From positions 616,854 through 680,853 of the forward strand of contig NZ_PCQA01000002.1 of NCBI RefSeq assembly GCF_002979915.1: a DNA stretch of 64,000 nucleotides, read 5' to 3'. The stretch comes from Arthrobacter sp. MYb213 (lineage in GTDB: Bacteria; Actinomycetota; Actinomycetes; Actinomycetales; Micrococcaceae). Below are positions 16,985 to 48,875 of the stretch, in pieces; the stretch's first letter is position 1, and every line of letters begins with the position of its first letter. The notes beneath the pieces were generated by a model that saw nothing but the letters and a program-made list of their open reading frames with translations, ran no database searches and was not told the origin of the DNA. A program made the position numbers and the translations under genes.

Positions 16985-16994
16985 ACTTTCTAGG

Positions 16995-18245
16995 CTACGC
17001 CGAAATTTTTCGCTCGCGGACTAGTGAGGTGATTGACCAGCAGGTCAGCAAGAGGGACAGTAATGCGCAGAGAATGCTGAAGACCAAAATGCTTAGCTCT
17101 TGGCCGTAGACTCCCACGGCCCAACCCAATGCAATCACCGGCAGCGCGCTACCTAAGTAGGTCACCAGGTAGATCGTGGAGACGGTCTGGGCGTGTAGTG
17201 ACGCCGAGACGGCGTTGACCGCACCGCTAAATGCGGTTCTAAAAGCCATCCCCTGGCCTAGCCCAATGAGCACTAACGCGACAATAGCTGACCACAATGA
17301 ACCATGTTCGGCGGCGATCACTAGCCCGATGGTGCTGGCAGCCAGAATCACTAACCCGACGGGCAATAGGTATTTTCCGCCGCGAATAACCACCTGTGAG
17401 AGGGCCGAAACGCCTAGGGGTAGGCCTGCAATAAGTCCGATCACCGGGAGGAATTCCAGCTCGAAGACCTGGGCGAAGTAGCCCGGTGCCAGCGACAAGG
17501 CAAAACCAAATACCGCGAAACTCAAGAATCCGACCAGTGCGCCCATCCAGAATTTTGCGCGTGCCTCGGCCGGGATGCCTAATCGGCGCGGAGCTAAGGC
17601 CCGATGGCGGTCGCCTCGTTCGGCCATCGCGATTGCCGGGCGTGCCTTCAACGCGACCAATGGGATCAGGGTTGCTAAGAGCAGTATTGCTTGGATAGTA
17701 AACACGGTGTTGCGCCCGCCCGGCAGTAGCGCAAGCACACCACCAAGGACCGGACCGAAGGCCACACCACCAGAGGAGGCAAGCAACGTGAAGCGTGAGG
17801 CCCATTCGGGCTTATGCGGCAGCAACTCACGCAAGGCGGCGGCGCTGGCTCCGGTGGCTAGGGCCACGCCTGCTCCTTGCAGTCCACGGCCCAAGCACAG
17901 TTCCCACAGGCTTGAGGCACTACCGAAGCTGATGGTTCCCACCAGCGAGACGATAATGGCGAGCACCAATGCGGCGCGGCGTCCGATGTGATCTGACCAG
18001 TGGCCCACGATGTAGAGGAAAAACATCAGCGAACAGACGTAGCTGGCGAAGGCAATGGTGGTGCCCATGGCACCAAGTGCTAGGTCCTGCTGTAGCTGGG
18101 GGTACAGCGGCGTGGCAAGGTTTGCCCCGACCAGCAGGGTGAAACTGACCAGCACCGTGATGCCTAGCCGGGTATTGATCCCGGGATTCCATGAGCGCAC
18201 GGTGGTTCGGGTCGGTTGCATGCGTAGTTCACTGATTACCGACAT
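16995..18245 (-). CDS. MFS transporter
   Basis: 416 residues, 12 predicted membrane segments, with motif A (VGHWSDHIGRRAALVLA) between TM2 and TM3. The ATG at 18245 is chosen because GGAG lies 5 nt upstream; the frame extends in-frame to an ATG at 18296, but those 17 residues are hydrophilic and lack homology to MFS termini. It is divergent from an Lrp/AsnC regulator, which suggests export or import of an amino acid-like effector. A strong hairpin lies in the leader (18311-18340). Confidence 0.85.
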   Translation of the reverse strand: MSVISELRMQPTRTTVRSWNPGINTRLGITVLVSFTLLVGANLATPLYPQLQQDLALGAMGTTIAFASYVCSLMFFLYIVGHWSDHIGRRAALVLAIIVSLVGTISFGSASSLWELCLGRGLQGAGVALATGASAAALRELLPHKPEWASRFTLLASSGGVAFGPVLGGVLALLPGGRNTVFTIQAILLLATLIPLVALKARPAIAMAERGDRHRALAPRRLGIPAEARAKFWMGALVGFLSFAVFGFALSLAPGYFAQVFELEFLPVIGLIAGLPLGVSALSQVVIRGGKYLLPVGLVILAASTIGLVIAAEHGSLWSAIVALVLIGLGQGMAFRTAFSGAVNAVSASLHAQTVSTIYLVTYLGSALPVIALGWAVGVYGQELSILVFSILCALLSLLLTCWSITSLVRERKISA

Positions 18246-34133: not shown

Positions 34134-35024
34134 TTACCGCATTTCGGCTCGGTCAGTCTCTGCAGAGGGTGCAATCCTTGTACGTAGCGGGCACGCTGGG
34201 ACAACAAACCAGCACAGGACCAATGCCACGGCGATTACGGAGGCCACGAGACCGAGGATGAGATTAGCTGGGGAGGGAAGTTCCTGAACGAGCACAAAGA
34301 CACCCATCACGAGCACGAAGTAGCCAAAGCCCTGACGCAGTGCGGCTTCGGGGATTCGCCCACTGAGACGGGCGCCCAGGAAAGAACCGAAGATCGCGGC
34401 GATAGTTACGGCTCCGACCAACACCCAATCCAGAGATACTGTGGTGAGGTAGCCACCAAGTCCCGCGAAAGACTTCATGGCAATAACTACCAGCGAAGTG
34501 CCAACCGCAACCGGCATCGACAAGCCGCCGAGCAACGCAAGCGCCGGGACCACAAGGAAGCCGCCACCGGCACCAACCAACCCGGTAACCAGACCCACAA
34601 CCAGCCCCTCGAAGATGACCTTGAGTACCGGGAGTTCTCCTTCGTGGGTGACGGTATGGTTCTTACGACCACGGATCATCGCCAGTGAGGTAGCGACCAT
34701 CATCAGAGCGAACGCGATCATGAGAATGGTTCCGGGGATATGCCCGCCCAATAGACCACCGCCAAAGGCCCCGGCCATGCCCGCTGCTCCGAAAAGAAGT
34801 CCGGTACGCCACTTCACACGTTTCTTGCGGGCATGGGTCACAGCGCTGACCGCTGAGGTAGCACCCACCACGAAGAGCGAGGCGGCGATGGCCTCTTTGG
34901 GGTTCATGCCTGCGACATAAGTGAGGATCGGGACGGTGAGGATGGATCCGCCTCCTCCGAGCAGCCCGAGCGAAAGCCCGATCAGCACTGAAAGTAGCAC
35001 GGTGAGTGCGAGGGTGAGGGTCAT
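34134..35024 (-). CDS. TauE/SafE (TSUP) family anion exporter
   Basis: 296 residues, about eight membrane segments. The two internal repeats show the TSUP motifs GLSLGLLGGGGSILTVPIL (TM1) and GLVGAGGGFLVVPALALLG (TM5). The family moves sulfite, thiosulfate or organosulfonates. It is the last gene of a leftward operon of rhodaneses and a persulfide-dioxygenase-like protein, so export of sulfite or thiosulfate made from persulfide is the likely job. Confidence 0.9.
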   Translation of the reverse strand: MTLTLALTVLLSVLIGLSLGLLGGGGSILTVPILTYVAGMNPKEAIAASLFVVGATSAVSAVTHARKKRVKWRTGLLFGAAGMAGAFGGGLLGGHIPGTILMIAFALMMVATSLAMIRGRKNHTVTHEGELPVLKVIFEGLVVGLVTGLVGAGGGFLVVPALALLGGLSMPVAVGTSLVVIAMKSFAGLGGYLTTVSLDWVLVGAVTIAAIFGSFLGARLSGRIPEAALRQGFGYFVLVMGVFVLVQELPSPANLILGLVASVIAVALVLCWFVVPACPLRTRIAPSAETDRAEMR

Positions 35025-35097
35025 GGGGAGAATTCCTTGCCGGTAGGGGTCAGCGTCAGCCGATGTGGGTGGAGCGGGTAATCGTCACGGCTTTTGG

Positions 35098-35394
35098 TTA
35101 GTTGATGGGCAGTCCGGCCTGCTGCCAGGCGACCATGCCGCCGCCCATGGTGTCGGCGCTGAATCCGGCAGCCGTCAGTGCGTCGGCGGCGCGGGCGCTT
35201 CGGTTGCCGCTGCGGCAGACCACGATGACTGGGCGCGCCCGGTCGATCTCGTTCAGTCGGCTGCTCAGCTCTCCCATGGGGATGTGGATCGCATTTGGGA
35301 TCATGCCGTCGGTGACTTCGAAGTCTTCGCGGACATCGAGGATCTGGTCCTTGGCACGTCGTTGGTCGGTGTCGGTGATGGTTATTTCGGGCAT
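35098..35394 (-). CDS. Single-domain rhodanese
   Basis: 98 residues, one rhodanese domain with the active-site loop VVVCRSGNRSARAA (catalytic Cys). Likely moves sulfane sulfur to or from small thiols or protein partners. Situated between the TSUP exporter and the rhodanese-membrane protein in the sulfur operon. Confidence 0.92.
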   Translation of the reverse strand: MPEITITDTDQRRAKDQILDVREDFEVTDGMIPNAIHIPMGELSSRLNEIDRARPVIVVCRSGNRSARAADALTAAGFSADTMGGGMVAWQQAGLPIN

Positions 35395-35431
35395 GGTCTG
35401 CTCCTGATAGGACGGTGCGGGTGTGGGTGGT

Positions 35432-35468
35432 TTTCGGGCCCGGAGGGGGGTTGGGTCCGGGCCCGAAA
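35432..35468 (-). promoter_or_regulatory. Intergenic stem-loop within the sulfur operon
   Basis: Perfect 13-bp stem (35432-35444 with 35456-35468), 11-nt loop, located between two co-directional rhodanese genes. No T-tract follows on the minus strand, so it may be a processing/stability element or a partial terminator. Confidence 0.6.
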
Positions 35469-35508
35469 GTCGGCTGGAAGAGCTGGTCGGGCCTGCCGTA
35501 GCGGGGTG

Positions 35509-36093
35509 TTAGGACCTTCCCACCGGTAGCTGCGCGATCACCGATTCACGGGTCGGGTCATTGCCGGTCTTGTTCCATGGCATCATGGACAAGGCCTTAC
35601 CCATGGCGCAGGTGTTGGTGGCAGCTGAGAAGGTCAAGCCAGCGCCGATCACGCCAGCGACGGTACGCAGCTGCGGGGAAAGAAATTTGCCCCCAGCCAG
35701 TCCCGCAACGACTAATGAACCGGCCACCATGCGCACCTGGCGTTCCAGGGCCCAGCGCTTTGATCCTTCGATAGTTTCCCCGCCTGCCTGATGGTAAGCG
35801 GGGACTCCGCCGTCAAGGACGTGGGCTTCGCTGAATCCAGCTGACGCGAGTTTGGTCTTGGCCTCCGTGGCCCGGACTCCGGACTGGCAGACCAGCACTA
35901 CCTTGGTGTCGAGTTTCGAAGCAAGTTCCTCGGTATGTTCAGCGAGCAACGGCAAGGGAACGTTGTAGGACCCCTTGATGTGTAGGGTTTCGAATTCGGC
36001 GGCTGAGCGCACATCAAGTACGACGATCTGGGCACCGGACGCAATCCAGTCTTTGAGTTCTTCAGGACTGGTGTTCTGAGGGTTGGTATTCAT
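35509..36093 (-). CDS. Rhodanese fused to a two-helix membrane domain (YgaP-like)
   Basis: 194 residues. N-terminal rhodanese (about 5-110) with active-site loop VLVCQSGVRATEA, then a C-terminal DUF2892-like part with two membrane helices (MVAGSLVVAGLAGGKF; VIGAGLTFSAATNTCAMG), as in YgaP. It should sit at the membrane with the rhodanese domain in the cytoplasm. Part of the CstR-controlled leftward operon by context. Confidence 0.9.
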   Translation of the reverse strand: MNTNPQNTSPEELKDWIASGAQIVVLDVRSAAEFETLHIKGSYNVPLPLLAEHTEELASKLDTKVVLVCQSGVRATEAKTKLASAGFSEAHVLDGGVPAYHQAGGETIEGSKRWALERQVRMVAGSLVVAGLAGGKFLSPQLRTVAGVIGAGLTFSAATNTCAMGKALSMMPWNKTGNDPTRESVIAQLPVGRS

Positions 36094-36130
36094 GGGTGTG
36101 CGTCTTTCTGCCGGATTTTTGCGCCCGGCC

Positions 36131-36162
36131 GGTCCCGCTTCCGAATCTGGGGAGGCGGGACC
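36131..36162 (-). promoter_or_regulatory. Second intergenic stem-loop within the sulfur operon
   Basis: 12-bp stem with one G-U pair (36131-36142 with 36151-36162), 8-nt loop, between the MBL-rhodanese gene and the YgaP-like gene; no T-tract on the minus strand. Confidence 0.5.
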
Positions 36163-36213
36163 ACGAACAATAGTTGGAATTAGTAAGGTGTCGGAGATTT
36201 GGAGGCGCAGAAC

Positions 36214-37611
36214 CTAGACGTTCTGCGTTTGCTTCCAGTCAGCCCAGCCTGCATAGCTGCCCTCTAGTTCAACGACGTCGAACCCTGCCCGGCGCAGAGC
36301 CGAAGCCGCCACCGAGTTACGGACTCCCGACTGGCAGTAACTCACGATCACCCCGTCCTTCGGTAGCTTTTCGGTGTGCCACAACACGCGCCCTGCATTG
36401 AGTTGCTCGGAGCCCGGGATGTGCCCGGCGGTGTGTTCGGATTTATTGCGCACATCCAGAACCAGGGCAGCATCGAACCCGGCCAGACCGGCGGGTGCCA
36501 AAGTCTTAGGAATGTAGACCGGCAGACCGTCAAAGGACGTGATGTATCCAGCGACATTATCGATGCCCACGCGGATGAGGTGGTCCCACATCTCGGTGGC
36601 GGTTTCGCTGCTCGGTGCCAACAGCACCAGCGGGCGGTGGTCGGTTTCCGGGTCCACGGCCCAACCGCCGTAGCTTGCCGCCTTATTGCCCGCCGGAATA
36701 TTCAAGGCGCCGGTCACGGTGCCGGCCTGCACCTGACTGTGGTGCCGGGTATCGACGACACCGAATTTGTCGGCGGCCAGGGCCACAGCGACGTCGTTTG
36801 TTGCCAGCTCGGTCAATGGTGTGCGTTCGCCCAGGATCGCTGGTCCCTGGCGGTTTTGGCGCTTCATGCGGCCGAAGTAGGCGTGGGCGTCTGGCTGGCC
36901 GTCGAGCAGTGCCTCGACGAATCCGGCTTCGTCGTCGGCGGCCAAGTAGGGGCCCCACCAGGCGAAGTTGCGTTCGTAACCGACGGTGGAAGAGGGGATT
37001 GACCCTAGCGCCTTACCGCAGGCACTGCCGGCTCCGTGGCCCGGGTAGACCTGAATGTAGTCCGGCAAGGTCAGAAACTTCTCCTTGAGGGAAACGAACA
37101 GGTCGTGGGCTCCAGCAAAACGGGTGTCGATGCCACCGGCGGCCTCGTCGAGCAGGTCCGGGCGGCCCAAGTCTCCGGAGAACACGAAGTCCCCGGAGAG
37201 TAGAAAGCCCGGCTTGTCGCTGAAGGCGCCATCGGTGACCAAGAAGGACAGATGCTCGGGGGTGTGCCCCGGGGTATGCAGGGCCTTGATGCTGATATTT
37301 CCCAGCGTAATGGCGTCCTGATCGAAGAGGCGTTCGCCTTCGAATTCGTACTGCCAGTCTTCTCCGCCTTCGCCCGAAACGTAAATGGTTGCATCGGTGG
37401 CGGCGGCTAGTTCCCGAGTGCCTGAGAGATAGTCGGCGTGGATGTGAGTCTCGGTAACGGCCACGATTTTCATACCGTTTTTCGCCGCAAGGTCTTGGTA
37501 TACCTGAATGTCGCGGCGGGCGTCGACCACTACGGCTTCTCCCTTGGCTTGGCAGCCAATGAAGTAGCTGGCCTGGGCGAGGTCCTCGTCATAAATGCGT
37601 TCGAGAAGCAT
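36214..37611 (-). CDS. MBL-fold persulfide dioxygenase-like protein with rhodanese domains (CstB/ETHE1-like)
   Basis: 465 residues. Residues 1-245 are a metallo-beta-lactamase fold with metal ligands His56, His58, Asp60 (ETHIHADYLSG), HTPGHTPEHLSF and SGDFVFSGDLGRPDL. The position after Asp60 is Tyr rather than the His of the classic HxHxDH; I believe aromatic residues there are common in this branch, which binds one iron. Residues 260-350 look like an inactive rhodanese (no Cys), and 370-462 a full rhodanese with YCQSGVRNSV. Oxidises persulfides to sulfite/thiosulfate by analogy with CstB. First gene of the leftward operon, starting just after the CstR operator region. Confidence 0.9.
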   Translation of the reverse strand: MLLERIYDEDLAQASYFIGCQAKGEAVVVDARRDIQVYQDLAAKNGMKIVAVTETHIHADYLSGTRELAAATDATIYVSGEGGEDWQYEFEGERLFDQDAITLGNISIKALHTPGHTPEHLSFLVTDGAFSDKPGFLLSGDFVFSGDLGRPDLLDEAAGGIDTRFAGAHDLFVSLKEKFLTLPDYIQVYPGHGAGSACGKALGSIPSSTVGYERNFAWWGPYLAADDEAGFVEALLDGQPDAHAYFGRMKRQNRQGPAILGERTPLTELATNDVAVALAADKFGVVDTRHHSQVQAGTVTGALNIPAGNKAASYGGWAVDPETDHRPLVLLAPSSETATEMWDHLIRVGIDNVAGYITSFDGLPVYIPKTLAPAGLAGFDAALVLDVRNKSEHTAGHIPGSEQLNAGRVLWHTEKLPKDGVIVSYCQSGVRNSVAASALRRAGFDVVELEGSYAGWADWKQTQNV

Positions 37612-37643
37612 GCTCTATCCTTTGTTTGCGTGAACGTCCCCAA

Positions 37644-37659
37644 ATACCCCTAGGGGTAT
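37644..37659. promoter_or_regulatory. CstR/CsoR operator, site A
   Basis: ATACCCCTAGGGGTAT, a perfect 16-bp palindrome, lying between the leftward promoter and the start of the MBL-rhodanese gene. Confidence 0.88.
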
Positions 37660-37673
37660 GAGGTTTAGATACG

Positions 37674-37702
37674 ACAATAATACCCCTAGGGGTATGTGTC
37701 AA
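37674..37702 (-). promoter_or_regulatory. Leftward sulfur-operon promoter with operator site B in its spacer
   Basis: On the minus strand TTGACA (37702-37697) and TATTGT (37679-37674) are separated by exactly 17 bp, and those 17 bp contain the complete palindrome ATACCCCTAGGGGTAT (37680-37695). A regulator bound there would block RNA polymerase directly. Confidence 0.88.
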
Positions 37703-37891
37703 ATCTTTTTTCAGTCACTCTTTGAGCGGCAGGGGCCGCAGGAGACCGCGCTCGGACTGCCATCAGTAGTGCTTATCTACGCCTCGCTCGAAGCGGGCAA
37801 GGTTATCGACGGTGCTCAGAAAGGCCGCTCGCACGCGTGCGCTGGACATACCCCGCAGGGTATTACGATTCATTACCTTCGCGGCGCCCAT

Positions 37892-37907
37892 AAACCCCTA
37901 GGGGTAT
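37892..37907. promoter_or_regulatory. CstR/CsoR operator, site C (autoregulation)
   Basis: AAACCCCTAGGGGTAT, one mismatch from the other two sites, 37 bp upstream of the regulator start and overlapping a possible -10 (TACAAT, 37907-37912). The 195 bp between sites B and C show no convincing gene. Confidence 0.82.
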
Positions 37908-37943
37908 ACAATGATTGGAACTAACAGCCAGAAAGGACCCACC

Positions 37944-38201
37944 ATGAAACTTGAAGTGGACACCATGAAACCCGCCATCAACAGACTCAAACGAGCTCAA
38001 GGCCAGTTGAACGCGGTGATTCGCATGCTGGAGGAAGGCAGTGACTGCCGCGCGGTTGTTACCCAACTTTCCGCTGCGTCCAAGGCCATTGACCGCGCAG
38101 GGTTTTCAATCATTGCCACCGGGCTAGAAGAATGCCTGAAGAGCGAGGACCCCACGGCCGACCGCGCCGATATGGAAAAGCTCTTCCTCTCTTTGGCTTA
38201 A
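37944..38201 (+). CDS. cstR: CstR-type persulfide-sensing repressor (CsoR family)
   Basis: 85 residues, all-helical CsoR/FrmR family. Cys35 (GSDCRAVV) and Cys64 (LEECLK) are present, but the His of copper-binding CsoR is replaced (GLEEC), the pattern of CstR, which senses persulfide or polysulfide by linking its two Cys. The ATG at 37944 has GAAAGGA upstream. Context (rhodaneses, persulfide dioxygenase-like protein, TSUP exporter) and the three GC-centred palindromes fit this role. Confidence 0.88.
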   Translation: MKLEVDTMKPAINRLKRAQGQLNAVIRMLEEGSDCRAVVTQLSAASKAIDRAGFSIIATGLEECLKSEDPTADRADMEKLFLSLA

Positions 38202-38287
38202 TCCACGGCCAGCTCGCGGTCGCGCCCACGTTGGCTCGCACCTACGCAGCATCTCGTAAATGAGTCACTCTCAACGAAGGGCATCGA

Positions 38288-38635
38288 ATGAGCCACCATC
38301 TTCTACTACACCTCGCCGGCCCTGAGGAATCCTCGTTCCCAGACCTCGCAACAGCCGCACGAATTGCACGCAATGCCCGTGCCGAACTACCGGTTTACAC
38401 TATCGAGATCGTCGTCCAGGGACCGAAGGTGAAAAGCCTATTAAATGATGGCGATTCTGCCCCAATAGTGACTTCCCTATTAGAAGCAGGATTCATCATT
38501 AGCGCTTGCGCCAACAGCCTTCGATCAACTGGCATCGAGCGCAAACAACTCATTGAGGGCGTACTCATTGTCAGCGCCGCGGTAGCCCACCTAGCCAAGA
38601 AGCAAATCGAAGGCGCCGCATATATACGCCTATAA
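38288..38635 (+). CDS. DsrE-like sulfur-relay family protein
   Basis: 115 residues. The pattern IEIVVQGPKVKSLL, then FIISACANSLRSTGIERKQL and VSAAVAHLAKKQIEGAAYI matches the DsrE/DsrF-like family; the Cys in ACANSL is the probable persulfide carrier. It follows cstR by 86 bp, so it should be in the same regulon. Confidence 0.82.
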   Translation: MSHHLLLHLAGPEESSFPDLATAARIARNARAELPVYTIEIVVQGPKVKSLLNDGDSAPIVTSLLEAGFIISACANSLRSTGIERKQLIEGVLIVSAAVAHLAKKQIEGAAYIRL

Positions 38636-39060
38636 CCGATTCGGAAAAGGCCAGACGAACCAGACGACGGACGCACCTTGCAGACGGAAAATGGGAGCGA
38701 GAAAGAGCCCTCGACGTCTTTTCATGCGCATCATATGGTTCCCAGCACGCAACGCGGTCGTCATCGACCGCACGCTGGCCAATCTCGAAACCCACATGAC
38801 CACTCGGATCTAAGCCGTCACTTTAGGTCGATACTGGTGGCTTCCAGACATGGAGTGGACCGTCTGATTGTCCGCCAGTACCCAAGGTAAGTGGGGCGTT
38901 CTTTAGCGGCGAGGGCACGCCGGGCCTCGGCTAAATCGGCGCTGGCCTGTAAGTCTCTCTGACGTGGGACCACTAGCTCTGGCCTTGCTCTTGGCACCAT
39001 TGTTTCCAATGGCATGACTTACTATCCCTATGAATCTATTCCTGCACAGAAGGGTGTTCC
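38636..39060. other. Gene-poor stretch
   Basis: About 425 bp. The only sizeable frames (38678-38890 plus, 38818-39015 minus) lack a convincing ribosome site and any recognisable family. No IS ends, tRNA or strong hairpins seen. Possibly a decayed gene. Confidence 0.4.
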
Positions 39061-39522
39061 ATGCCGTCTCTCAGCAACATCCTGACAAAACTCAAGAGTC
39101 ACCTTGGGTCCAAGTTCTCAGATGAACCGATGGTCTACGTTGTTTACGGTAAACTACCCAGCCCGTTTCCGGATTTAGAATTCATAGAGCCAATAATTGC
39201 GGTTGCGGCCAGTGAGCAGGAATGCTTTGCGATTCAGGAAAAGTATCCAGAGACTGAAGTTAGTTGGGAAGCCCGAAAGGTTGAGGGTGCTGCAGGCAGC
39301 GGTAGCGCAGGAGGCAGCGTTCTGTATCTCGCCCACACCACTTTGTTACCGTACGACGAGGACACCATTGGGAATCCAGTCTTCGGAATCATGGAGTCGC
39401 CGCGGCCCACTGCCCTATATTGCAGTCGAGCTACTGCTGAACTAGAAGCGCCGGATCAATATCTGCACATAGTCAATATCGGTGACGTAAACCTTCGCGG
39501 CGTCGGAGAGCTTTTGGAATAA
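39061..39522 (+). CDS. Hypothetical protein
   Basis: 153 residues, soluble, slightly acidic. The start has GAAGGGTGT shortly upstream. It contains a Gly/Ser-rich linker (EGAAGSGSAGGS) in the middle separating two short alpha/beta-like halves (VYVVYGKLPSPFPDLEF; YLHIVNIGDVNLRGVGELLE). I recognise no family and its neighbours (sulfur locus, putA scar) give no clue. Confidence 0.6.
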   Translation: MPSLSNILTKLKSHLGSKFSDEPMVYVVYGKLPSPFPDLEFIEPIIAVAASEQECFAIQEKYPETEVSWEARKVEGAAGSGSAGGSVLYLAHTTLLPYDEDTIGNPVFGIMESPRPTALYCSRATAELEAPDQYLHIVNIGDVNLRGVGELLE

Positions 39523-39674
39523 GCATTCGTCATCTTTAGCCTATATCTGACCTGCCAGACCCGAAGAAGTTCGCACCCAAAGCCATAGTCACGCGCTACG
39601 TTGCAGGCGATGAAACCGGTTCAGATGCCACTTTGACCTGCTCTACGTTGTCTCAATTACCCATCGTTAAAGCC

Positions 39675-39720
39675 CCGTGGGCCGGTCCGACTTCAATAAG
39701 AGGTGCAGACCGGCCCACGG
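39675..39720 (-). terminator. Terminator downstream of the truncated putA copy (probably the original putA terminator)
   Basis: Perfect 13-bp stem CCGTGGGCCGGTC/GACCGGCCCACGG (39675-39687 with 39708-39720), 20-nt loop, followed on the minus strand by GGGCTTT. It lies 27 bp beyond the stop of the putA fragment and has no other gene to serve. Confidence 0.75.
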
Positions 39721-39746
39721 TCTATGCGTTACAAACTAGCGGGTGA

Positions 39747-39983
39747 TTAGATCAATTCATCAGTGAGGTGATTCGGTGTACCGAAGCGGTGCGCGGTAAT
39801 CGACACAGCCTGCTCGTGCAGGAATGGCAACATTTCCACGCGTCCGGCACCGGTGACCGACGAGGCGTAGATGGCGACATCCGGCTTACCATTGGTAGCC
39901 TCGGCCAGAGCCTTCACCGAACCACCGATCAAATGGATTCGTGATGAAGAATTCGGTCCGGTCTTCGCAGCTAGGCGAGCAGC
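39747..39983 (-). pseudogene. 3'-terminal fragment of putA
   Basis: 79 codons (with stop) matching the last 79 codons of the intact putA at 45354-45590 without indels; 12 of 236 bases differ, giving about 95% identity. The frame is open but ends upstream at an in-frame TAG just past the homology boundary (39983/39984), and no start exists. It is a leftover of a recombination that placed the 39984-45354 cassette behind putA. Confidence 0.9.
39748..39983. repeat. Direct repeat, left copy of the putA 3' end
   Basis: 236-bp direct repeat partner of 45355-45590, same orientation, about 95% identical, no indels. Together they bracket a 5.4-kb cassette. Confidence 0.9.
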
Positions 39984-40026
39984 ATTGTCAAACCTCTATT
40001 GGATCCCGTAGGCCCAATGGCAAACT

Positions 40027-41499
40027 CTATGCTTTGATGGCTCCCACCGCATCAGTCATCACTGCCCGTTCTCTGAATGCAATGACCTGTTCCAGCGCAG
40101 CGGCAACACCAAAGGTGGTAGTTTCATCCCAACTTTGACCAACGACCTGCATTCCCACAGGTACGTTATCGGCGCCTACTCCGCATGGAAGGCTAAACAC
40201 AGGCCGCTGATTAGCGACGTTGAAAGGACTGGTCATATGTCCTTCCCAATAATGGGTCAGTTTCCGGCTACCCACTTGCAACCCATCGAGATAGTCGCCG
40301 TCTGCAAGCAACCAGTCCATCGCGTTAGTCGGGCACAACAGCACGTCCACATCCGTGGTCGCTTCGGTTAGTTGTGCGTTCATGATCGCGTCCAACTGCA
40401 GCGATTCGATGAGCGAGACCGTTTCAGCCTGGTCCAAGGCATCTTTCATGAATTGGTCCGTATACGCCGCTCGTGGTTCGGAGGAGTCTCCAATAATTTC
40501 GGCCATCGCCGGAGCGAGAATATGTCCGAAGTGGGCGAAAGTCGTCTTACGAACTTGCTCCGTGGTCCACGGAATCTTGATCTCGCGGATATCGGCACCG
40601 GCGGCACGGAATTTGTTAATTGCGTTTCCTATACAACGCATCACCTCGCTGGTGACCGGGTAGTCTCCCAAGTCAAAACTGACACCGATACGTAATTGCG
40701 CAAGTTGCTTTTCCTCGCGGAACAACGCTGTACCGGTTTCACCCCACGAGTTCGTGTCCGCGGGATGCTTGCCGCTGATGATCGAGGACATAAGCGCAAC
40801 ATCGGCAACCGTTCGTCCCATAGGTCCGTCGCCACGGTACCAGTCCACAGATAAGTAACCTGCGCCGGGAATTCGGCCATAGGGTGCTTTATACCCCACA
40901 TTTCCGGTGAAGGCTGCCGGGATGCGTGTTGAACCGGCGATATCCGACGCCGTCGCTAGGGTGCAAAATCCGGCTGCCAAGGCTGCACCTGCCCCGCCTG
41001 AAGAGCCACCGGGAGACATTTGCAGGTTCCACGGATTCCGAGTGGTTCCCCACATTGGTGAATGCGTTACCGTTGCACAACTAAATTCGGGACTCGTCGT
41101 CCGAGCGTGGATGATCGCTCCAGCCGCACGCAGCCTGGCTACGATTGGATGGTCCGACTCGGCGATCTTTCCGCTCAGTGCGCGAAGCCCCTGGGAATGT
41201 GTTTTCCCCGCCAACGCGTGCTTTTCCTTCGTTGCAACGGTGATTCCGAGCAAATCTGGAAGCACTCGCTTGCTACTGCGCCTGTGGCGGGCATATTCAT
41301 CGCTGGCCGCGCTGGCCGCGGTACGCGCTTGCTCATGCATAACCTCGGTGAGGGCATTCACGCCCGTTCCTTCGCCATAGTTATATATTTCGATCCTGCT
41401 AAGTTGAGCTTCTAGGACATCTCTGGGTGAAAGCTCCCCCTCGATGAACGACTGTCGCTGGTGTAGTGCAGAAAGAAAGGCGATGTCTTCGGCATTCAT
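40027..41499 (-). CDS. Amidase (amidase-signature family)
   Basis: 490 residues from the ATG at 41499, which overlaps the M20 gene by 4 bp (ATGA); a longer frame to 41577 would run into that gene. The Lys-cisSer-Ser triad is clear: Lys91 (ITVATKEKHALAG), Ser166 (SPGGSSGGAGAALA) and Ser190 (ASDIAGSTRIPAA). It hydrolyses an amide or a carbamoylated compound in the cytoplasm. As last gene of a LysR-MHS-M20-amidase operon it probably completes breakdown of an imported amide or ureide. Confidence 0.92.
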   Translation of the reverse strand: MNAEDIAFLSALHQRQSFIEGELSPRDVLEAQLSRIEIYNYGEGTGVNALTEVMHEQARTAASAASDEYARHRRSSKRVLPDLLGITVATKEKHALAGKTHSQGLRALSGKIAESDHPIVARLRAAGAIIHARTTSPEFSCATVTHSPMWGTTRNPWNLQMSPGGSSGGAGAALAAGFCTLATASDIAGSTRIPAAFTGNVGYKAPYGRIPGAGYLSVDWYRGDGPMGRTVADVALMSSIISGKHPADTNSWGETGTALFREEKQLAQLRIGVSFDLGDYPVTSEVMRCIGNAINKFRAAGADIREIKIPWTTEQVRKTTFAHFGHILAPAMAEIIGDSSEPRAAYTDQFMKDALDQAETVSLIESLQLDAIMNAQLTEATTDVDVLLCPTNAMDWLLADGDYLDGLQVGSRKLTHYWEGHMTSPFNVANQRPVFSLPCGVGADNVPVGMQVVGQSWDETTTFGVAAALEQVIAFRERAVMTDAVGAIKA

Positions 41500-42779
41500 G
41501 AGATCTGCACGGCCGAGTCGAATAGGAATTCGTCTTGCCCGGTCTCGGCCGCCAACGCGCCAAAGATCATCTGCCAACCTGTTTCTGCCAGCACCTCAAG
41601 ACCGTCAAGCATATGTTCGTCGGTCGAAAATTCGCGTTCACAATGGCTGACGCCATCGATTGATGGAATGAACATCATGACTGTCGGCACGATCTTATTC
41701 ATCGCCACCGAGTCATGCCCCGCCATTGTGCGAATCCTTCGCACGGACTTGCCAAGGTTTGCAGTAACTTTTTCGACCAATTGCAGCCCTGACTCCGGGT
41801 AGTACTGAATATCGCGGATGTCGAAGTCGTTGACGTTAATTTTGATATCGTGCTCTTTGGCGATCGTGGCGATGTCCTCCAGCATTATCCGCCGTGCTTC
41901 GGCCACCGTTGGCTGGTCGACCGCACGCAAGTCGGCCACCAAGCTAACGCGCCTGGCCACAACAATCGGCGAATTCGGTTCCAGCGTCATCCTGCCCACG
42001 GAAGACACAATGTTGCCCTTTTCAAACCGCTCAACCACCTCGTGGACTTTGAGAATCACCTTGCTCGCAGCAACCAGCGCGTCATGCCGATCTGCCATTG
42101 CGGTGGCACCGGTGTGCGATTGTTCGCCTAATACTTCGACATCAAGCTTCTGTGTATGCCAAGAGTAGTCAACGGCTCCGATGGACACTGATTCCCGCTC
42201 CAAGATCCGTCCCTGCTCAATATGAATTTCGGCATATCCGGCTACTTCAGGACGAAGATCATTCCCGAGATACCCGATTGCTTCCAGCGCCTGAGCCACG
42301 TTAATTCCTTCAAGATCGCTCACGCTGAGCATCTCATGTTGGTCCATTGAACCCACAAAGACCGACGAGCCCATGATCGACGGAGCAAAACGTCCGCCTT
42401 CTTCGTTGAACCAGTTCACGACGCCTAAGTTGAACCGCGGTGACACGTTTTCTAATCGCAGTCGTGCCTCGATATGTTTAGCTGCATGCAGACCTGCGAT
42501 GACACCGTAAGCACCGTCAAAGCGACCGCCCAGAGGCTGCGAGTCTAAGTGCGAACCCAGCAGGATGTAGGGTGCGCCAGGAGTAAATTCGATCAGTGCA
42601 AACATATTGCCGATTGCATCCACCCGCAGTTCCCAACCCTTGTCTTGCGTAAACTGCGCGAACCAATCTCGGCTCAGTTTGTCTTCTGCGGTTGCCGCCT
42701 GGCGATCCACACCATGGTTAGGGGTAGCGCCAAAGGTGGCAACGTGGTGGAAATCGGTAAGAAAATCGTGGGACATCAT
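41496..42779 (-). CDS. M20 family hydantoinase/carbamoylase-type amidohydrolase
   Basis: 427 residues. Zinc ligands of the N-carbamoyl-L-amino-acid hydrolase/allantoate amidohydrolase branch are visible: His77 (LLGSHLDSQP), Asp88 (GRFDGAYG), Glu126/127 (NWFNEEGGRF), His in AEIHIEQGRILE and His in GVSHCEREF. It cleaves the carbamoyl or related amide group of a small substrate. GAAAGGA lies 4 nt before the ATG. Allantoate or N-carbamoyl-beta-alanine are alternatives to N-carbamoyl amino acids. Confidence 0.9.
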   Translation of the reverse strand: MMSHDFLTDFHHVATFGATPNHGVDRQAATAEDKLSRDWFAQFTQDKGWELRVDAIGNMFALIEFTPGAPYILLGSHLDSQPLGGRFDGAYGVIAGLHAAKHIEARLRLENVSPRFNLGVVNWFNEEGGRFAPSIMGSSVFVGSMDQHEMLSVSDLEGINVAQALEAIGYLGNDLRPEVAGYAEIHIEQGRILERESVSIGAVDYSWHTQKLDVEVLGEQSHTGATAMADRHDALVAASKVILKVHEVVERFEKGNIVSSVGRMTLEPNSPIVVARRVSLVADLRAVDQPTVAEARRIMLEDIATIAKEHDIKINVNDFDIRDIQYYPESGLQLVEKVTANLGKSVRRIRTMAGHDSVAMNKIVPTVMMFIPSIDGVSHCEREFSTDEHMLDGLEVLAETGWQMIFGALAAETGQDEFLFDSAVQIS

Positions 42780-42813
42780 GTGGTCCTTTCAAAAAGACGG
42801 TTTGCTGGCCTGG

Positions 42814-44160
42814 CTACTTGGCTGCGGTGGCTTCTTGTTTCTTAAACAACGGGTGAGTTTCTGGAACCGGGGTGAAAACCAACAGGCAGAGTACGATCAG
42901 CGCGGCCGCTGCCATATAAACGCCTGGGATCATCGAGATGCCGGTCGTCGAAACGAGCCATGTGCCAATAAATGGTGCAGTGCCACCAAACAACGCGTAG
43001 GCGATGTTGTAGCTGATTGCCGCGGAGGTAAATCGAGTTTTGGTGGTGAAAATTTCAACGAAAAAGGTATAGCAACCGCCGCCATAAATACACATTGGAA
43101 TCACGAAGAGCAGCTGTCCGGCGATAGCCAGCGGCAATGATCCGCTAGTTACTAGCCAGAAACACGGAATACTCAGGATGAGCAACGCGGCAGACCCTGC
43201 AATCAGCATCGGTTTGCGTCCAAATTTATCGCCCAGTAGGCCGCCGATTGGCAGCAATAGAGCGTAGGCGGCCATGGCCACGGCGTTGGCAAGCAACGAC
43301 ATTTCCAAGCTGAGGTTTCCTGATACCTGCACGTAGGAGACAAAATATCCGGAGAGGAAGTAGAAGCCCATAGCCGTCAGCGCCATTACAAAAGCAACCT
43401 GGAGCATACGGAGTTTATTTTCGGCGAATGCCTGACGCAGCGGACTGTATTCCTTATGTTGATTCTTCAGTATCACCGCTTTGAATTCTTCTGATTCCTC
43501 GGTTTTTGCCCTAATCCACAGCCCAAAGAGCGCCAGCGGAAGTGCCAACAGGAATGGAATACGCCATCCGTACGCTTCGAAGTTAGCTGGATCCATCGTC
43601 GTTGATAACACTAGAATTAACGTTCCGCCGACGACCGAAGGTAACGCCGTTGCCGCGAGGGTAATGGTCAGCCAGAATCCGCGCCGGTTCAAGGGCGCAT
43701 GCTCAAAAACGAATGCTGGCGCACCGACTGATTCACCACCTGCGGAGAACCCTTGGACCAGGCGGCAAAGGACCAATAGTGCCGGAGCCAACGCACCGAT
43801 CTGAGCAAAAGTTGGGAGTAATCCGATTCCGAAGGTAGCGAGACCGATAGTCAGCAAGGTAATGAAGAGGACTTTTCGTCGGCCGATCTTATCGCCCAGC
43901 GCACCAAAGAATAGGCCGCCGATTGGACGTACCAAGAACGCCACGCCGAATGCAGCGAAGGTTGCTAGCAATCCCGCTAGGGCACTCTGCGAAGGGAAGA
44001 ACAAAGCTGAGAGGGTGACCGCAGAAAGTCCATAAAGCGTGAAGTCATAGAATTCGATGAACTGACCGATACTACCGCCAGCGAGAACACGGTGTTTCAT
44101 CTTCTTTTCTTGTTGCTTCTCTGACGCGTCAACATCAGATTTGAGGGTACTCACAGTCAC
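42814..44160 (-). CDS. MFS permease, MHS (metabolite:H+ symporter) family
   Basis: 448 residues from the GTG at 44160 (AGGAAG upstream); the frame extends to 44250 but adds only a polar tail. 12 membrane segments with the MHS signatures IGQFIEFYDFTLYG in TM1, VRPIGGLFFGALGDKIGRRK (motif A) and RLVQGFSAGGESVGAPAF. MHS members import organic acids, betaines or amino acid-like solutes with protons. It should import the substrate of the amidohydrolase and amidase. Confidence 0.9.
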   Translation of the reverse strand: MTVSTLKSDVDASEKQQEKKMKHRVLAGGSIGQFIEFYDFTLYGLSAVTLSALFFPSQSALAGLLATFAAFGVAFLVRPIGGLFFGALGDKIGRRKVLFITLLTIGLATFGIGLLPTFAQIGALAPALLVLCRLVQGFSAGGESVGAPAFVFEHAPLNRRGFWLTITLAATALPSVVGGTLILVLSTTMDPANFEAYGWRIPFLLALPLALFGLWIRAKTEESEEFKAVILKNQHKEYSPLRQAFAENKLRMLQVAFVMALTAMGFYFLSGYFVSYVQVSGNLSLEMSLLANAVAMAAYALLLPIGGLLGDKFGRKPMLIAGSAALLILSIPCFWLVTSGSLPLAIAGQLLFVIPMCIYGGGCYTFFVEIFTTKTRFTSAAISYNIAYALFGGTAPFIGTWLVSTTGISMIPGVYMAAAALIVLCLLVFTPVPETHPLFKKQEATAAK

Positions 44161-44326
44161 GGATCTTCCTTCTTTCGGTCCCTGCCCTATTACTTCAGGC
44201 TGGTGCTCTTGGGGAAGGACGGGCTTTGTTGCTCGTTCTCTTGTACTCAAGAATCTGTGAGTTCAAACACATAGTCCAACGGGAAAGATTCGTTAGGCTA
44301 ATCGTTAAAAACGATCAGACTAAGCG

Positions 44327-45247
44327 CTAGCCATCGCTTCCCCCCGCAAATGTTGCAAAGACTCTGGCCTTTCGACTTACCGGGAGATCCTTCGGATAGA
44401 CGACAACAACGGTTATCGGAAGCACCGGATCGGCGATAATGATTGGCACCACTGTCTTCCCCGTGTAAGTCTGATCGTGTGGCAAGCGACGGTTTAAGAT
44501 TGAATACCCCAGACCCATGGCCACGTACGATCGAACGGTTTCATAGCCGGACACCCAATAACCAATTTTTGGTTCGAGATTGAGTACCGAGAATAACCTC
44601 AGAAAGTATTCCCTCGAATGCTCCTGATCAAGTAGGACTAGTGGTTCGTCAACAAGTTGAGCGAGCTGGACAGGCAGCTCTTGCTTTGCCAGCCAATGGT
44701 CCTGACTGACAATCACGTGCGCGCCAAGCCGTTCTACCGGCTCCATGGCAAATTCAGCACCTACGCCAAGGTCATACATCATGGCGATTTCACATTCCCC
44801 GTTCCGTAGAGCCTGAAGAATTTGACTCTGGTCCCCTTCGATGAAATTTACCGTCATGTTCGGGTATTTGGTACTAAATTCCTTGAGTAGTTTTGGGGCA
44901 ATGAATGCGGCCAGAGGCGCAAACAGTCCCACACGCAGTACACCGCTCAGGCTCTGACTCTCACCGCTAATCGACAGACTAAGCGAATCAGCATCTTCAA
45001 GTAGCAATCTGGCGCCAGAGGCCATGCGCTTTCCGTCTTGGGTGATGCGCAGTGCGCGATTCGGTAGTCGCTGAAATAACTGCACACCCAAATCATGCTC
45101 AAGCTGGCTGAGCGAAGCGGACAGCGTCGACTGCGTTACATTCAATTCTTGAGCGGCTGCACGCATGTTTTCTAACCGTGCAATTTCCATGAAGTAACGA
45201 AGCTGAATAAGGGTAAATGAACGAGCCATACCTCGAATACTAGTCAT
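44327..45247 (-). CDS. LysR family regulator of the amidase cassette
   Basis: About 306 residues. Winged HTH (LRYFMEIARLENMRAAAQEL, then TQSTLSASLSQLEHDLGVQL) and effector domain. Start is uncertain: ATG 45247 used, with ATG 45229 and TTG 45268 as alternatives, none with a good ribosome site. It is co-directional with and upstream of the MHS permease gene, so it may lead the operon. Base composition is lower in GC than putA: lines 44521-44580 and 44581-44640 hold 28 and 26 G/C of 60, against 36 of 60 in 47281-47340. Confidence 0.85.
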   Translation of the reverse strand: MTSIRGMARSFTLIQLRYFMEIARLENMRAAAQELNVTQSTLSASLSQLEHDLGVQLFQRLPNRALRITQDGKRMASGARLLLEDADSLSLSISGESQSLSGVLRVGLFAPLAAFIAPKLLKEFSTKYPNMTVNFIEGDQSQILQALRNGECEIAMMYDLGVGAEFAMEPVERLGAHVIVSQDHWLAKQELPVQLAQLVDEPLVLLDQEHSREYFLRLFSVLNLEPKIGYWVSGYETVRSYVAMGLGYSILNRRLPHDQTYTGKTVVPIIIADPVLPITVVVVYPKDLPVSRKARVFATFAGGSDG

Positions 45248-45288
45248 GTCCGTTATAAGCAACGACAAAATTCGAGCTTAAAGCAGGA

Positions 45289-45326
45289 CAAGCGCTGGAT
45301 ACTACGAATGTAATATCCAGCGCTTG
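45289..45326 (-). terminator. Stem-loop downstream of intact putA
   Basis: Perfect 13-bp stem (45289-45301 with 45314-45326), 12-nt loop, 28 bp beyond the putA stop and before the LysR gene; the T-tract is weak. It differs entirely from the terminator behind the truncated putA copy. Confidence 0.65.
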
Positions 45327-45353
45327 CACCAGCATCTAACTGCTCGCAGTGAA

Positions 45354-48300
45354 CTAGATCAATTCATCACTTAGGTGATTCGGCGTACCGAAGCGGTGCG
45401 CGGTAATCGACACTGCCTGCTCGTGCAGGAATGGCAACATTTCCACGCGTCCGGCACCGGTGACCGGCGAGGCGTAGATCGCCACATCCGGCTTACCATC
45501 GGTAGCCTCGGCCAGAGCCTTCACCGAACCACCGATCAAACGGATTCGTGATGAAGAAGTCGGACCGGTCTTCGCAGCCAGGCGAGCAGCCCGAGCGGCG
45601 AAAGCATTCGCATCCTCATCAACCACGATCACCGAGTGTTCGGCGAACAGGTTGCGTACCCCACGAGGCAGTTCCAGCTCGCTGGAAAGTAGCACGCGAG
45701 ATCCTGCGGTGACGCCGGCAGCGACTACACGCAATGCCTCGGCCACACCGTGTTCGCTGGTTGCAGCCTCGAAGCGGACGGTGACATCTACCGGCTTGTA
45801 GCGGAAGATATTTCGTTCGGCGACCAGACCCGAGCGGTCCTTAGCCTGGTTGAATTCCTGATTCCACCACAGCTTGTCACTACCCAGTGCGCCGCGCAGC
45901 CAGGCCGAATCGGTTTCGGATAGCTCCGCTGCGTTCAGCAGTCGTTCGTCAAAGACGGACAGTGCGGCGGTTTCGCGCACCGGCGCGTCAACCCAGCTAC
46001 CCATGCCGACCAGGTAGTTCGGGCCGCCAGCCTTGGTGCCTGCACCAATGGCCGACTTCTTCCAACCACCAAATGGCTGGCGCTGCACGATAGCGCCGGT
46101 GATGCCACGGTTCACGTAGATGTTTCCGGCCTGGATGTTTTCCATCCAGTAAGCCAGCTCATCGCGGTCCAGCGAGTGCAAGCCTGAAGTCAACCCGAAG
46201 TCGACCTCGTTGACCAGCTCAACTGCTTCTTCCAGGGTCGGCGCGGTCATCACGCCAAGGATCGGGCCGAAGTATTCGGTCAGGTGATATTCGCTGCCAC
46301 GCTTGACTCCGTAACGTACGCCTGGCGAGTAGAGCTTGCCCGACTCGTCAAGTTGCTTCGGTTCCACGGCCCAACGCTCACCGGCACCGAGGGTGGTCAA
46401 ACCACGCTTCAGCTTTTCGCCTGGCTCATCGATCAATGGGCCCATCTGAGATTCTGGGTTCCATGGGTAACCGACCTTCAGCGACTTCACCGCGTCGATC
46501 AGCTGGCTGTTGAAGCGCCGTGACTCTGCCACGGAGCCAACGAGTACTACCAGTGAGGCGGCGGAGCATTTCTGTCCGGCGTGCCCGAAGGCCGAGGCAA
46601 CCACGTCGCGAGCAGCCAGGTCCAGGTCCGCGTGCGGGGTGACGATGATGGCGTTCTTGCCCGAGGTTTCGGCCAGCAGCGGCAGGTCCTTGCGGAAGGA
46701 ACGGAAGAGTTCAGCGGTCTCGTAACCACCGGTGAGGATCAAACGATCCACCCGCTCATCGGATACCAACTGGGTACCCAGGTCACGGTTGCCGGCGAAG
46801 ACCAGCTGCAGGACGTCCTTAGGCACTCCGGCGTCCCAGAGGGTCTGCACCATCACCGAGCCAATACGTGAGGCCAAGGTGGCAGGCTTGATGATCACCG
46901 CGGAGCCGGCGGCCAGTGCGGACATGGTCGAACCGGCAGGGATTGCCATCGGGAAGTTCCACGGCGGGGTGACCACCGTCAGCTTCGAAGGCACAAAGGT
47001 TGCGCCATCAACGGTGTCTAGTTCCAGTCCACGCTGTGCGTAGTAGTGCGCGAAGTCGATCGCCTCGGAGATTTCCACATCACCCTGGTCGATGTTCTTT
47101 CCGCATTCCGAACCGAGTACCTCTAGCAGCATCGCACGGCGCTCTTCGAAGAGCAGTCCGGCGCGGTGCAGAATTTCTGCGCGGGCCGTAGCGCCCAAGG
47201 CCTGCCAATCAGCGGAGGCGTCAACGCCCATGGCGATGGCCTCATCCATTTCGCTTGCCGAGTGCAGGGTGTTGGCCGCAACCAGGTCCTTGCCGAGCTT
47301 CGACTCCTGCATCTTGGAGAGGATTTCGCGTCCCCAGCTGCGGTTTACGTCTAGATCCGGGTCGGTATCTGGGGTGTTGAAGAAGCTGGTGGATCCGTCG
47401 GCGAACCCAGCGACTACCTCGGTCAGCGCCGGGTCCGACTCCTGACGGTTCTGTACGCGGTGCGAAGCCGGAACCACATCGGCCAAGTTTTCTAGTGAGG
47501 CGAGGAAGCGGTTCTTCTCGCGCTCAAAGAGTTCTTCGTTCTTCTCTAGTTCGAAGACCGCGGACATGAAGTTTTCCTGGCTGGCGCCTTCTTCGAGGCG
47601 GCGGATCAGGTAGGCGATGGCCACGTCGAATTCAGCCGGGTGTACTACCGGGGTGTACAACAACAGTTCGCCCACGTCGCGGCGTACCGCTTCGGCCTGA
47701 CCGGTGGCCATGCCCAACAGCATTTCAAACTCGATGCCGTGCTTGACGTCGCGTGCCTTGGCCAATAGCCAAGCTAGTGCGATGTCGAACAGGTTGTGTC
47801 CTGCAATGCCGATGCGCACGTTCTCCACGTGGCCTGGGCGCAGTGCGTATTCGAGCACCGACTTGTAGCTGGTGTCGGTGTCCTGCTTGGAGTGCCAGGT
47901 GGCTAGTGGCCAGCCGTGGATGTCTGCCTCCATGATTTCCATGGGCAGGTTAGCGCCCTTAACTACGCGCACCTTAATAGGTGCTCCGCCCTGCGCCACG
48001 CGGGCTGCGGAGAACTCTTGGAGTTCAATCATCGCGCCCAGTGCGTCGGGTAGGTAAGCCTGCAAGACGATGCCGGCAGATAGTTCCTTGAATTCAGGTA
48101 GGGCCAGGATCTTGGTGAAGACCGCGATGGTCAGCTCCAGGTCCTTGAACTCTTCCATGTCCAGGTTGATGAACTTCTTCTTTGTTGCCTTATTTGCCAG
48201 CTCATACAGTGGGCGCAGCTTCTCGACAATGTGCTCCACCGCTTCGTCGAAGGCCCAGTGGTTATGTGGGGCGACGGTGGAAGAGACCTTGATCGAGACG

Positions 48301-48875
48301 TAGTCCACGTCATCGCGGCTCAAAAGCTTGGTGGTGCCATCTAGGCGACGGGTTGCTTCGCCCTGGCCGAGGATTGCCTCGCCGAGTAGGTTGACGTTCA
48401 GGTTAACGCCGTCGCGCTTGATCTTGGAGATCGCGCCGCCTAGCTTGTGATCCGAGGCGTCAATGATCAGGTGTCCCACCATTTCGCGCAGCACACGGCG
48501 CGCGATAGGGACAACGATCGATGGCAGTACCGGCGCCATGGCGCCGCCTAGCGCGACGGCCTTGCGCATGTACCAAGGCAGGAAGCTTGGCACCATCGGT
48601 GCCAGCTTCTTCAGGTTGCCCGCGGCGACCTTTAGATCTTCGGGGCGGATGACACCATCAACAAACCCGACGGTGAAGTCTAGTCCCTGAGGGTCCTTGA
48701 GTACTCCGGCCAGCCGGGCTGCGGAGGCATCGATAGGGAAGGTGGAGGCTTCGGTCAGCCAGTGACGGACTAGTTTAATAGTCTCGTCTGCAAGTTCTGC
48801 CGGAAGGGTCAGGGGGTTGCCTGCCGAGTCGACCGCCGGTGCGACGGTTCGTGCGGTGGTGATAGAGGATGACAT
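45354..48875 (-). CDS. putA: Bifunctional proline dehydrogenase / L-glutamate-gamma-semialdehyde dehydrogenase
   Basis: 1173 residues. The N-terminal part (about 70-460) is the FAD-dependent proline dehydrogenase barrel (KRDGVNLNVNLLGEAILG, VRVVKGANLPMEIMEA, GIAGHNLFDIALAWLL). The middle (about 540-1000) is the NAD+ aldehyde dehydrogenase with Glu in LLAETSGKNAI and catalytic Cys in GHAGQKCSAASL. A further C-terminal domain (about 1000-1173) follows, and no DNA-binding ribbon-helix-helix is present, so it does not self-regulate. It oxidises proline to glutamate at the membrane. Its last 79 codons are duplicated at 39747-39983. Confidence 0.96.
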   Translation of the reverse strand: MSSSITTARTVAPAVDSAGNPLTLPAELADETIKLVRHWLTEASTFPIDASAARLAGVLKDPQGLDFTVGFVDGVIRPEDLKVAAGNLKKLAPMVPSFLPWYMRKAVALGGAMAPVLPSIVVPIARRVLREMVGHLIIDASDHKLGGAISKIKRDGVNLNVNLLGEAILGQGEATRRLDGTTKLLSRDDVDYVSIKVSSTVAPHNHWAFDEAVEHIVEKLRPLYELANKATKKKFINLDMEEFKDLELTIAVFTKILALPEFKELSAGIVLQAYLPDALGAMIELQEFSAARVAQGGAPIKVRVVKGANLPMEIMEADIHGWPLATWHSKQDTDTSYKSVLEYALRPGHVENVRIGIAGHNLFDIALAWLLAKARDVKHGIEFEMLLGMATGQAEAVRRDVGELLLYTPVVHPAEFDVAIAYLIRRLEEGASQENFMSAVFELEKNEELFEREKNRFLASLENLADVVPASHRVQNRQESDPALTEVVAGFADGSTSFFNTPDTDPDLDVNRSWGREILSKMQESKLGKDLVAANTLHSASEMDEAIAMGVDASADWQALGATARAEILHRAGLLFEERRAMLLEVLGSECGKNIDQGDVEISEAIDFAHYYAQRGLELDTVDGATFVPSKLTVVTPPWNFPMAIPAGSTMSALAAGSAVIIKPATLASRIGSVMVQTLWDAGVPKDVLQLVFAGNRDLGTQLVSDERVDRLILTGGYETAELFRSFRKDLPLLAETSGKNAIIVTPHADLDLAARDVVASAFGHAGQKCSAASLVVLVGSVAESRRFNSQLIDAVKSLKVGYPWNPESQMGPLIDEPGEKLKRGLTTLGAGERWAVEPKQLDESGKLYSPGVRYGVKRGSEYHLTEYFGPILGVMTAPTLEEAVELVNEVDFGLTSGLHSLDRDELAYWMENIQAGNIYVNRGITGAIVQRQPFGGWKKSAIGAGTKAGGPNYLVGMGSWVDAPVRETAALSVFDERLLNAAELSETDSAWLRGALGSDKLWWNQEFNQAKDRSGLVAERNIFRYKPVDVTVRFEAATSEHGVAEALRVVAAGVTAGSRVLLSSELELPRGVRNLFAEHSVIVVDEDANAFAARAARLAAKTGPTSSSRIRLIGGSVKALAEATDGKPDVAIYASPVTGAGRVEMLPFLHEQAVSITAHRFGTPNHLSDELI
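45355..45590. repeat. Direct repeat, right copy (3' end of intact putA)
   Basis: Partner of 39748-39983; homology ends abruptly inside putA at 45590, where the intact gene continues but the left copy meets cassette sequence. Confidence 0.9.

Follow-up and report, generated by a model that had tools for sequence, protein, structure and literature searches.

Genes between two copies of the putA end

The DNA analysed here (the window, 64,000 nucleotides of Arthrobacter sp. MYb213; assembly GCF_002979915.1, contig NZ_PCQA01000002.1, positions 616,854 to 680,853) carries an intact putA gene, followed by a cassette of four genes for a LysR-family regulator, an MHS-family permease, an M20 hydrolase and an amidase-signature hydrolase, and, behind the last of these, the 3' end of putA for a second time (Table 1). 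A repeat search of the window places both copies on the same strand, with 95% identity over 236 nt in one register, and the base-by-base comparison gives 12 differences in 236 positions (13 in 237 if the stop codon is included, which is TAA in the left and TAG in the right copy) without a single insertion or deletion. The left copy lacks the 5' part of the gene and has an open frame of 82 amino acids. An earlier note on this DNA had described co-linear copies of this kind, a headless left copy, these four genes between them and a LysR gene lower in GC than putA, and each of these statements is borne out by the repeat, positionwise and family searches. In detail, the GC content is 50.6% for LysR, 52.5% for the MHS permease, 54.0% for the M20 hydrolase and 55.8% for the amidase, compared with 60.4% for putA.

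The repeat is not a matter of chance, since the match has an E value of 1.8e-103 and only these two places were found in the genome itself (G000). As the copies are 5% apart, they are presumably not an echo of the assembly either; the window is located inside a 684-kb contig. The outer edge of the repeat does not coincide exactly with the stop codon, as the intact copy can be aligned without gaps to the closest relative (G009, see below) for another 8 nt beyond it. At the inner edge, positions 39984-40047 show no similarity to the sequence further upstream in putA, nor to a second genus relative, G004.

Table 1. Features of the window around putA and the cassette (G000, genome of the window; G009 and G004, relatives from the same genus)
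Feature	Position	Strand	Basis and remarks
TauE/rhodanese/MBL-rhodanese/DsrE/orf153 block	34134..39522	.	not found behind putA outside G000 and G009 in the stretches of 17 genus relatives
Native putA hairpin (terminator-like), behind left copy	39675..39720	-	common to G009; folding
Left repeat copy, headless putA 3' end, apparently decaying	39748..39983	-	repeat search, comparison with G009; stop codon TAA reaches 39747
Junction, amidase end to headless putA piece	39984..40026	-	similarity tests
Amidase-signature hydrolase (PF01425)	40027..41499	-	domain searches
M20 hydrolase (PF01546), hydantoinase/carbamoylase-allantoate amidohydrolase group	41496..42779	-	TIGR01879 299 bits (cut-off 204); NF006772 436 (cut-off 424)
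MHS-family (metabolite:H+ symporter) permease, MFS	42814..44250	-	TIGR00883 match below its cut-off
LysR-family regulator	44327..45268	-	domain searches; comparison with G004 favours a start codon near 45229
Strong hairpin behind intact putA, part of foreign flank	45288..45327	-	folding z -6.19; unlike native 3' flank
Intact putA (proline dehydrogenase / glutamate semialdehyde dehydrogenase, 1173 aa)	45354..48875	-	domain searches; 94% nucleotide identity to G009 putA
Right repeat copy, last 236 bp of intact putA, under purifying selection	45355..45590	-	amino-acid sequence the same as in G009 (78 codons, 0 differences)

The relatives of the M20 protein with solved structures include carbamoylases, beta-alanine synthases and allantoate or ureidoglycolate hydrolases, and judging from the protein families the cassette may serve to import and hydrolyse some amide or N-carbamoyl compound. 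A search with the M20 gene found 319 relatives, and the loci of the best 80 of these 319 were examined. All four genes are present in the same order and on the same strand in 67 of them, and the LysR-MHS-M20-amidase operon was seen in loci from Arthrobacter, Paeniglutamicibacter, Mycolicibacterium, Leucobacter and Brevibacterium. Only one of the 80 fetched stretches, from Arthrobacter sp. MYb229 (L088), contains a putA match as well. The operon is thus a common one which is normally unlinked to putA.

The two copies of the putA end are followed by different hairpins. The one behind the left copy folds far better than shuffled sequences in the window (z -4.44) as well as in G009 (z -7.88), and the left flank is native (alignment score 57 against a shuffle mean of 9.4). 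The first 40 nt of the right flank, in turn, show no similarity to the left flank, to G009 or to G004 (P 0.94, 0.62 and 0.12), with the exception of the initial 8-11 nt, which resemble G009; by these comparisons the flank directly behind the intact putA is foreign. The suggestion of the earlier note that a strong terminator behind the left copy fits putA, and that the intact gene has a different stem-loop, holds as far as the hairpins are concerned. The word terminator, however, is a reading of the fold, because neither of the two is listed by a consensus scan for intrinsic terminators (a hairpin followed by a run of T).

The empty site in the closest relative and the divergence of the copies

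The window was compared with 17 relatives from the genus (18 genomes together with G000). The closest one, G009 (locus L033), lacks the cassette. Its single putA directly meets the hairpin which in the window stands behind the left copy, followed by orf153, DsrE and the MBL-rhodanese gene, and this is the arrangement that the earlier note had predicted for a relative without the cassette, i.e. putA and directly thereafter the 39675-39720 terminator. The window and G009 are co-linear, with 88% identity over 38665-39983, and no native DNA has been lost at the insertion when compared with G009. Because the site in G009 is empty and co-linear, the left copy with its hairpin represents the old end of the locus, whereas the cassette and one 236-bp copy were added; the native 3' flank is now 5.6 kb away from the intact gene. 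The best explanation for this arrangement would be that the cassette entered this lineage after its split from G009, the closest relative sampled.

The comparison of single positions drew on G009 and G004 and, of the remaining 15 genus relatives, on 13 (L039 and L045 were left out). At the 13 positions where the two copies differ, stop codon included, G009 agrees with the intact copy at 10, with the left copy at 2 and with neither at 1. With this three-state site set aside, the private changes of the left copy are 5 synonymous ones (one being the stop codon) and 5 nonsynonymous ones, compared with 11 synonymous and 0 nonsynonymous changes in the intact copy and G009 together (Fisher P 0.012). 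If the left copy had evolved under the constraint that acts on putA as a whole, at least 5 nonsynonymous changes among 10 would be expected with a probability of only 0.012. The left copy thus looks like a relic that has decayed without selection.

The distances between the four sequences amount to 13 between the left and the right copy, 36 between G009 and G004, 20 between the left copy and G009, 42 between the right copy and G004, 51 between the left copy and G004 and 12 between the right copy and G009. The resulting pair sums of 49 versus 62 and 63 group the two copies together, with G009 outside. By a rough clock the left branch has a length of 0.044 per site and the right branch one of 0.040 per synonymous site, and both branches would place the insertion very approximately at 0.36-0.41 of the time since the split from G009.

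Routes by which the cassette may have entered

We consider it the most plausible reading, with a probability of roughly 0.58, that a single-crossover (Campbell-type) insertion-duplication added a catabolic operon of four genes and foreign origin behind putA and, along with it, duplicated 236 bp of the putA end. A small non-replicating circle, or a recircularised fragment, would have held the operon and a 3' piece of putA derived from the same or a close lineage, and would have recombined once with the chromosomal putA. After such a crossover putA would be intact and followed by the cargo, and behind the cargo would stand a headless copy that has the original 3' flank and would then have decayed without selection. 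At the locus, copies on the same strand bracket the cassette, a relative exists with one copy, no insert and no native DNA missing from the window, and the truncated copy has kept the original downstream DNA while the intact copy has received the incoming flank.

A precedent is available from E. coli. According to the part of the study by Amarir-Bouhram et al. (PMC3240628) on which we rely, 56 of 60 clones obtained after conjugation gave a polymerase chain reaction product diagnostic of a terminal duplication, and the duplications in 14 sequenced clones measured 109-950 bp and were ascribed to one crossover with a trimmed circle. There, as here, direct copies of part of a gene flank foreign DNA. 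The E. coli case, as far as that part of the study describes it, is nevertheless an engineered laboratory plasmid, whereas the window records an old natural event with copies that are 5% diverged and with no plasmid gene among the four. The Campbell-type circle proposed in the earlier note agrees with the geometry, the empty site and this precedent, but the chimeric tract that was part of the proposal was not found.

Several observations weigh against insertion by a single crossover. Neither a circle nor a donor nor an excision product was seen, and a close donor should have putA joined to the operon, which is the case in none of the 17 genus relatives. A donor signature is expected in some part of the intact copy and was not found there either. 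In detail, the last 300 bp of the intact copy are 93-95% identical to G009, within the 90-98% observed over the whole gene, and sliding identity shows no step near the 3' end; with no diverged tract in the intact copy and with the two copies grouping together, the "intact chimeric putA" of the earlier note is not supported, although a tract from a very close donor would be invisible. Under plain neutrality 5 or fewer nonsynonymous changes among 10 have a P of 0.10, so that an unconstrained left copy fits the counts but is unproved, and at 7 of its 10 private positions the left copy has a base that also occurs among the 13 other genus genomes compared, at one position in all 13. These shared bases mean that the divergence of the left copy may partly come from donor DNA, and this donor may have been a more diverged one. 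In addition, the counts behind decay and grouping are small (13 differences) and rely on one close outgroup. Finally, a plasmid DNA search (72,556 records) returned 8 records with short matches covering 2-4% of the query, and in a plasmid protein search with M20 none of the 1242 matching records reached 60% identity. Since no similar cassette occurs in this collection, a plasmid origin of the cassette was rejected.

As a separate observation, the 73-kb Paenarthrobacter plasmid NZ_CP053547.1 carries a whole putA relative at 63845-67399 (67% amino-acid identity), which indicates that putA itself is able to travel on plasmids in this family.

An explanation which we regard as unlikely, yet still deserving serious attention, is homology-facilitated illegitimate recombination or the capture of DNA at a break, in which a linear fragment was joined without homology at one or both ends; the 236 bp would have become duplicated since the two ends were joined at different points of sister chromosomes. 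That one flank is duplicated points to a single crossover or to an illegitimate join. As the two copies group together, illegitimate joining has no need of a diverged donor putA, the left junction is unlike the sequence upstream in putA, and a ComEC-family gene in the genome makes the uptake of DNA thinkable. Of the junctions of this type reported in the cited part of PMC3240628, 3 of 4 lacked homology; in homology-facilitated recombination, most illegitimate junctions would be expected to show micro-homology of 3-10 bp. PMC3240628 also states, however, that illegitimate joining generally deletes recipient DNA, whereas nothing native is missing here compared with G009, and a match to Ku was not obtained in this genome. 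Least likely of the three routes, and altogether a very weak candidate, is site-specific integration, i.e. an integrative element for which the putA 3' end was the attachment site and which left the gene complete and lost its integrase afterwards. The insert does stand behind a gene with an intact end, as it would after the action of an integrase, and a genome from another genus (G216) likewise has an insert with a displaced putA tail. In keeping with the absence of an integrase noted earlier, the contig of the window (C7) has no match to Pfam Phage_integrase (PF00589), three such matches being located elsewhere in the genome (C13, C1 and C14), and the four insert genes belong to other Pfam families; serine integrases were not searched genome-wide. 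The boundaries differ too, since the repeat in G216 measures 75 bp and stops about 25 bp short of the stop codon whereas that in G000 measures 236 bp; this favours recombination over a fixed site of attachment. A clear second tail was found only in G216 among 90 relatives with usable downstream sequence. With islands at gene ends such as SGI1 at trmE, as presented in the part of PMC8409611 drawn on here, the insert shares its position against an intact gene end, but it differs from them in that no integrase was found, the repeat is long and diverged and the second case has no common boundary.

The remaining explanation is that the operon already stood behind putA in the ancestor of G000, G009 and G004 and was lost from G009 by recombination between the repeats. 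In its favour, G004 (Arthrobacter sp. MYb229, placed in the Micrococcaceae by NCBI) carries the cassette in the same interval between putA and the core gene c3, at a distance of 3.9 kb from putA and without a putA duplication. The two copies in the window group together with G009 outside, however, and the M20 orthologue is absent from 16 of the 18 genus genomes, being present only in G000 and G004 (84%); some M20 match occurs in 12 of the 18, with values of at most 47% beyond these two. Moreover, synonymous differences (pS) between G000 and G004 are near saturation in the cassette (0.71-0.87) compared with 0.37-0.61 in five neighbouring core genes, which suggests independent acquisition of the two cassettes or donors distant from each other. 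The high values may also reflect a faster change of genes with low GC content. With synonymous differences this close to saturation, vertical descent from an ancestor shared with G004 was judged unlikely, and loss from G009 appears to us the most improbable of all the explanations considered.

The event is best read as ordinary horizontal transfer by recombination and not as the work of a new kind of mobile element. It is a case from nature in which genes were clearly gained although no mobile element can be recognised, with the empty site, the intact gene, the displaced native 3' flank and the decaying tail all visible, and it illustrates one way in which catabolic operons may spread among environmental Actinobacteria, namely by ordinary recombination at a core gene.

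The site behind putA in the genus and the family

The gap from putA to c3 measures 57-135 bp in 10 of the 16 genus relatives in which it could be assessed and contains 0.65-9.4 kb of extra DNA in the other 6; in G017 a contig end cuts it. What has been inserted differs between genomes: G009 and G000 have a sulfur-related block, G004 has the cassette together with a two-component pair, and G007, G002, G008 and G006 hold other open frames. The TauE/rhodanese block which lies between putA and the ABC genes in the window probably entered the same spot earlier, in an insertion of its own. The cassette genes of G004 (L034 3022-8236) have a GC content of 52-55%, compared with 59-70% in the core genes around them, which hints that they are foreign in that genome.

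Insertion spots without integrases between core genes have been described by Oliveira et al. (PMC5635113), and the site behind putA is one with variable content between the same core genes. Like the hotspots in the part of that study considered here, it holds different gene sets between putA and the c3/ABC genes, and a tyrosine integrase was not found at it. The authors propose a double recombination that involves the core genes on both sides, whereas in the window one flank is duplicated. A limited search of the literature, from which we do not claim absence from print, yielded no report of an insertion hotspot at proline dehydrogenase in Arthrobacter.

To find headless putA tails elsewhere, the PutA C-terminus was searched in 295 genomes of the family, and the 23 with two matches were re-examined. 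Most of the second matches belong to long frames, which is what a second putA gene would give. The frames were short in G140 (79 aa), G216 (41 aa) and G267 (48 aa, one stop), and weak or unclear matches were obtained in G355 (42% identity, frame 606) and G367 (44%, frame 270). G267 was discarded as a further case because its two copies (L172 12031-12737 and L173 near 16291-17000), which are 99.6% identical over 710 bp and surrounded by the same genes, lie at the two ends of one contig, and the second putA end is a false one produced by overlapping contig ends.

In addition, the DNA downstream of putA was scanned in 91 relatives, the genome of the window not being among them. Besides relatives from the genus these comprised 73 family genomes from beyond it, which were drawn from the best-scoring ones and are not a random sample, and G216, which was included since it had been flagged beforehand. 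L194 (G331) was dropped because of too little sequence, which left the 90 usable relatives mentioned above, G017 being represented by only 243 bp. Apart from the tail in G216 (75 bp, E 6e-20 against its own putA), the scan gave weak same-strand matches in L040, L210, L222 and L231 (19-45 bp, E 6e-7 to 3e-4, at least 168 bp before the stop codon), six short opposite-strand matches (L046, L182, L183, L193, L207 and L229) and weak protein matches in L043 and L185, all of which were read as chance.

In G216 a stretch of 5.4 kb (L171 7224-12620) is inserted behind putA when compared with its relative G111 (L181, 97% DNA identity). The displaced piece (7459-7533) is 85% identical to the genome's own putA end and lies near the far edge of the insert, to which it belongs, while the intact putA keeps about 70 bp of its native flank. 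Pfam gave no match for either of the two open frames in this insert, which measure 1115 and 301 aa. These findings raise the idea that the putA 3' end is a recurrent integrase-free entry point in the Micrococcaceae, at which cargo with a putA tail inserts and leaves a headless tail behind, G000 and G216 being independent events and G140 a third trace; we consider this generalisation doubtful. The headless C-terminal piece in G140 (L168 9380-9592), which shows no DNA match to the putA region of its own genome, lies beside genes for an M20 hydrolase, an MHS permease and an AsnC regulator, and an IS481-type transposase is located about 5 kb away from it.

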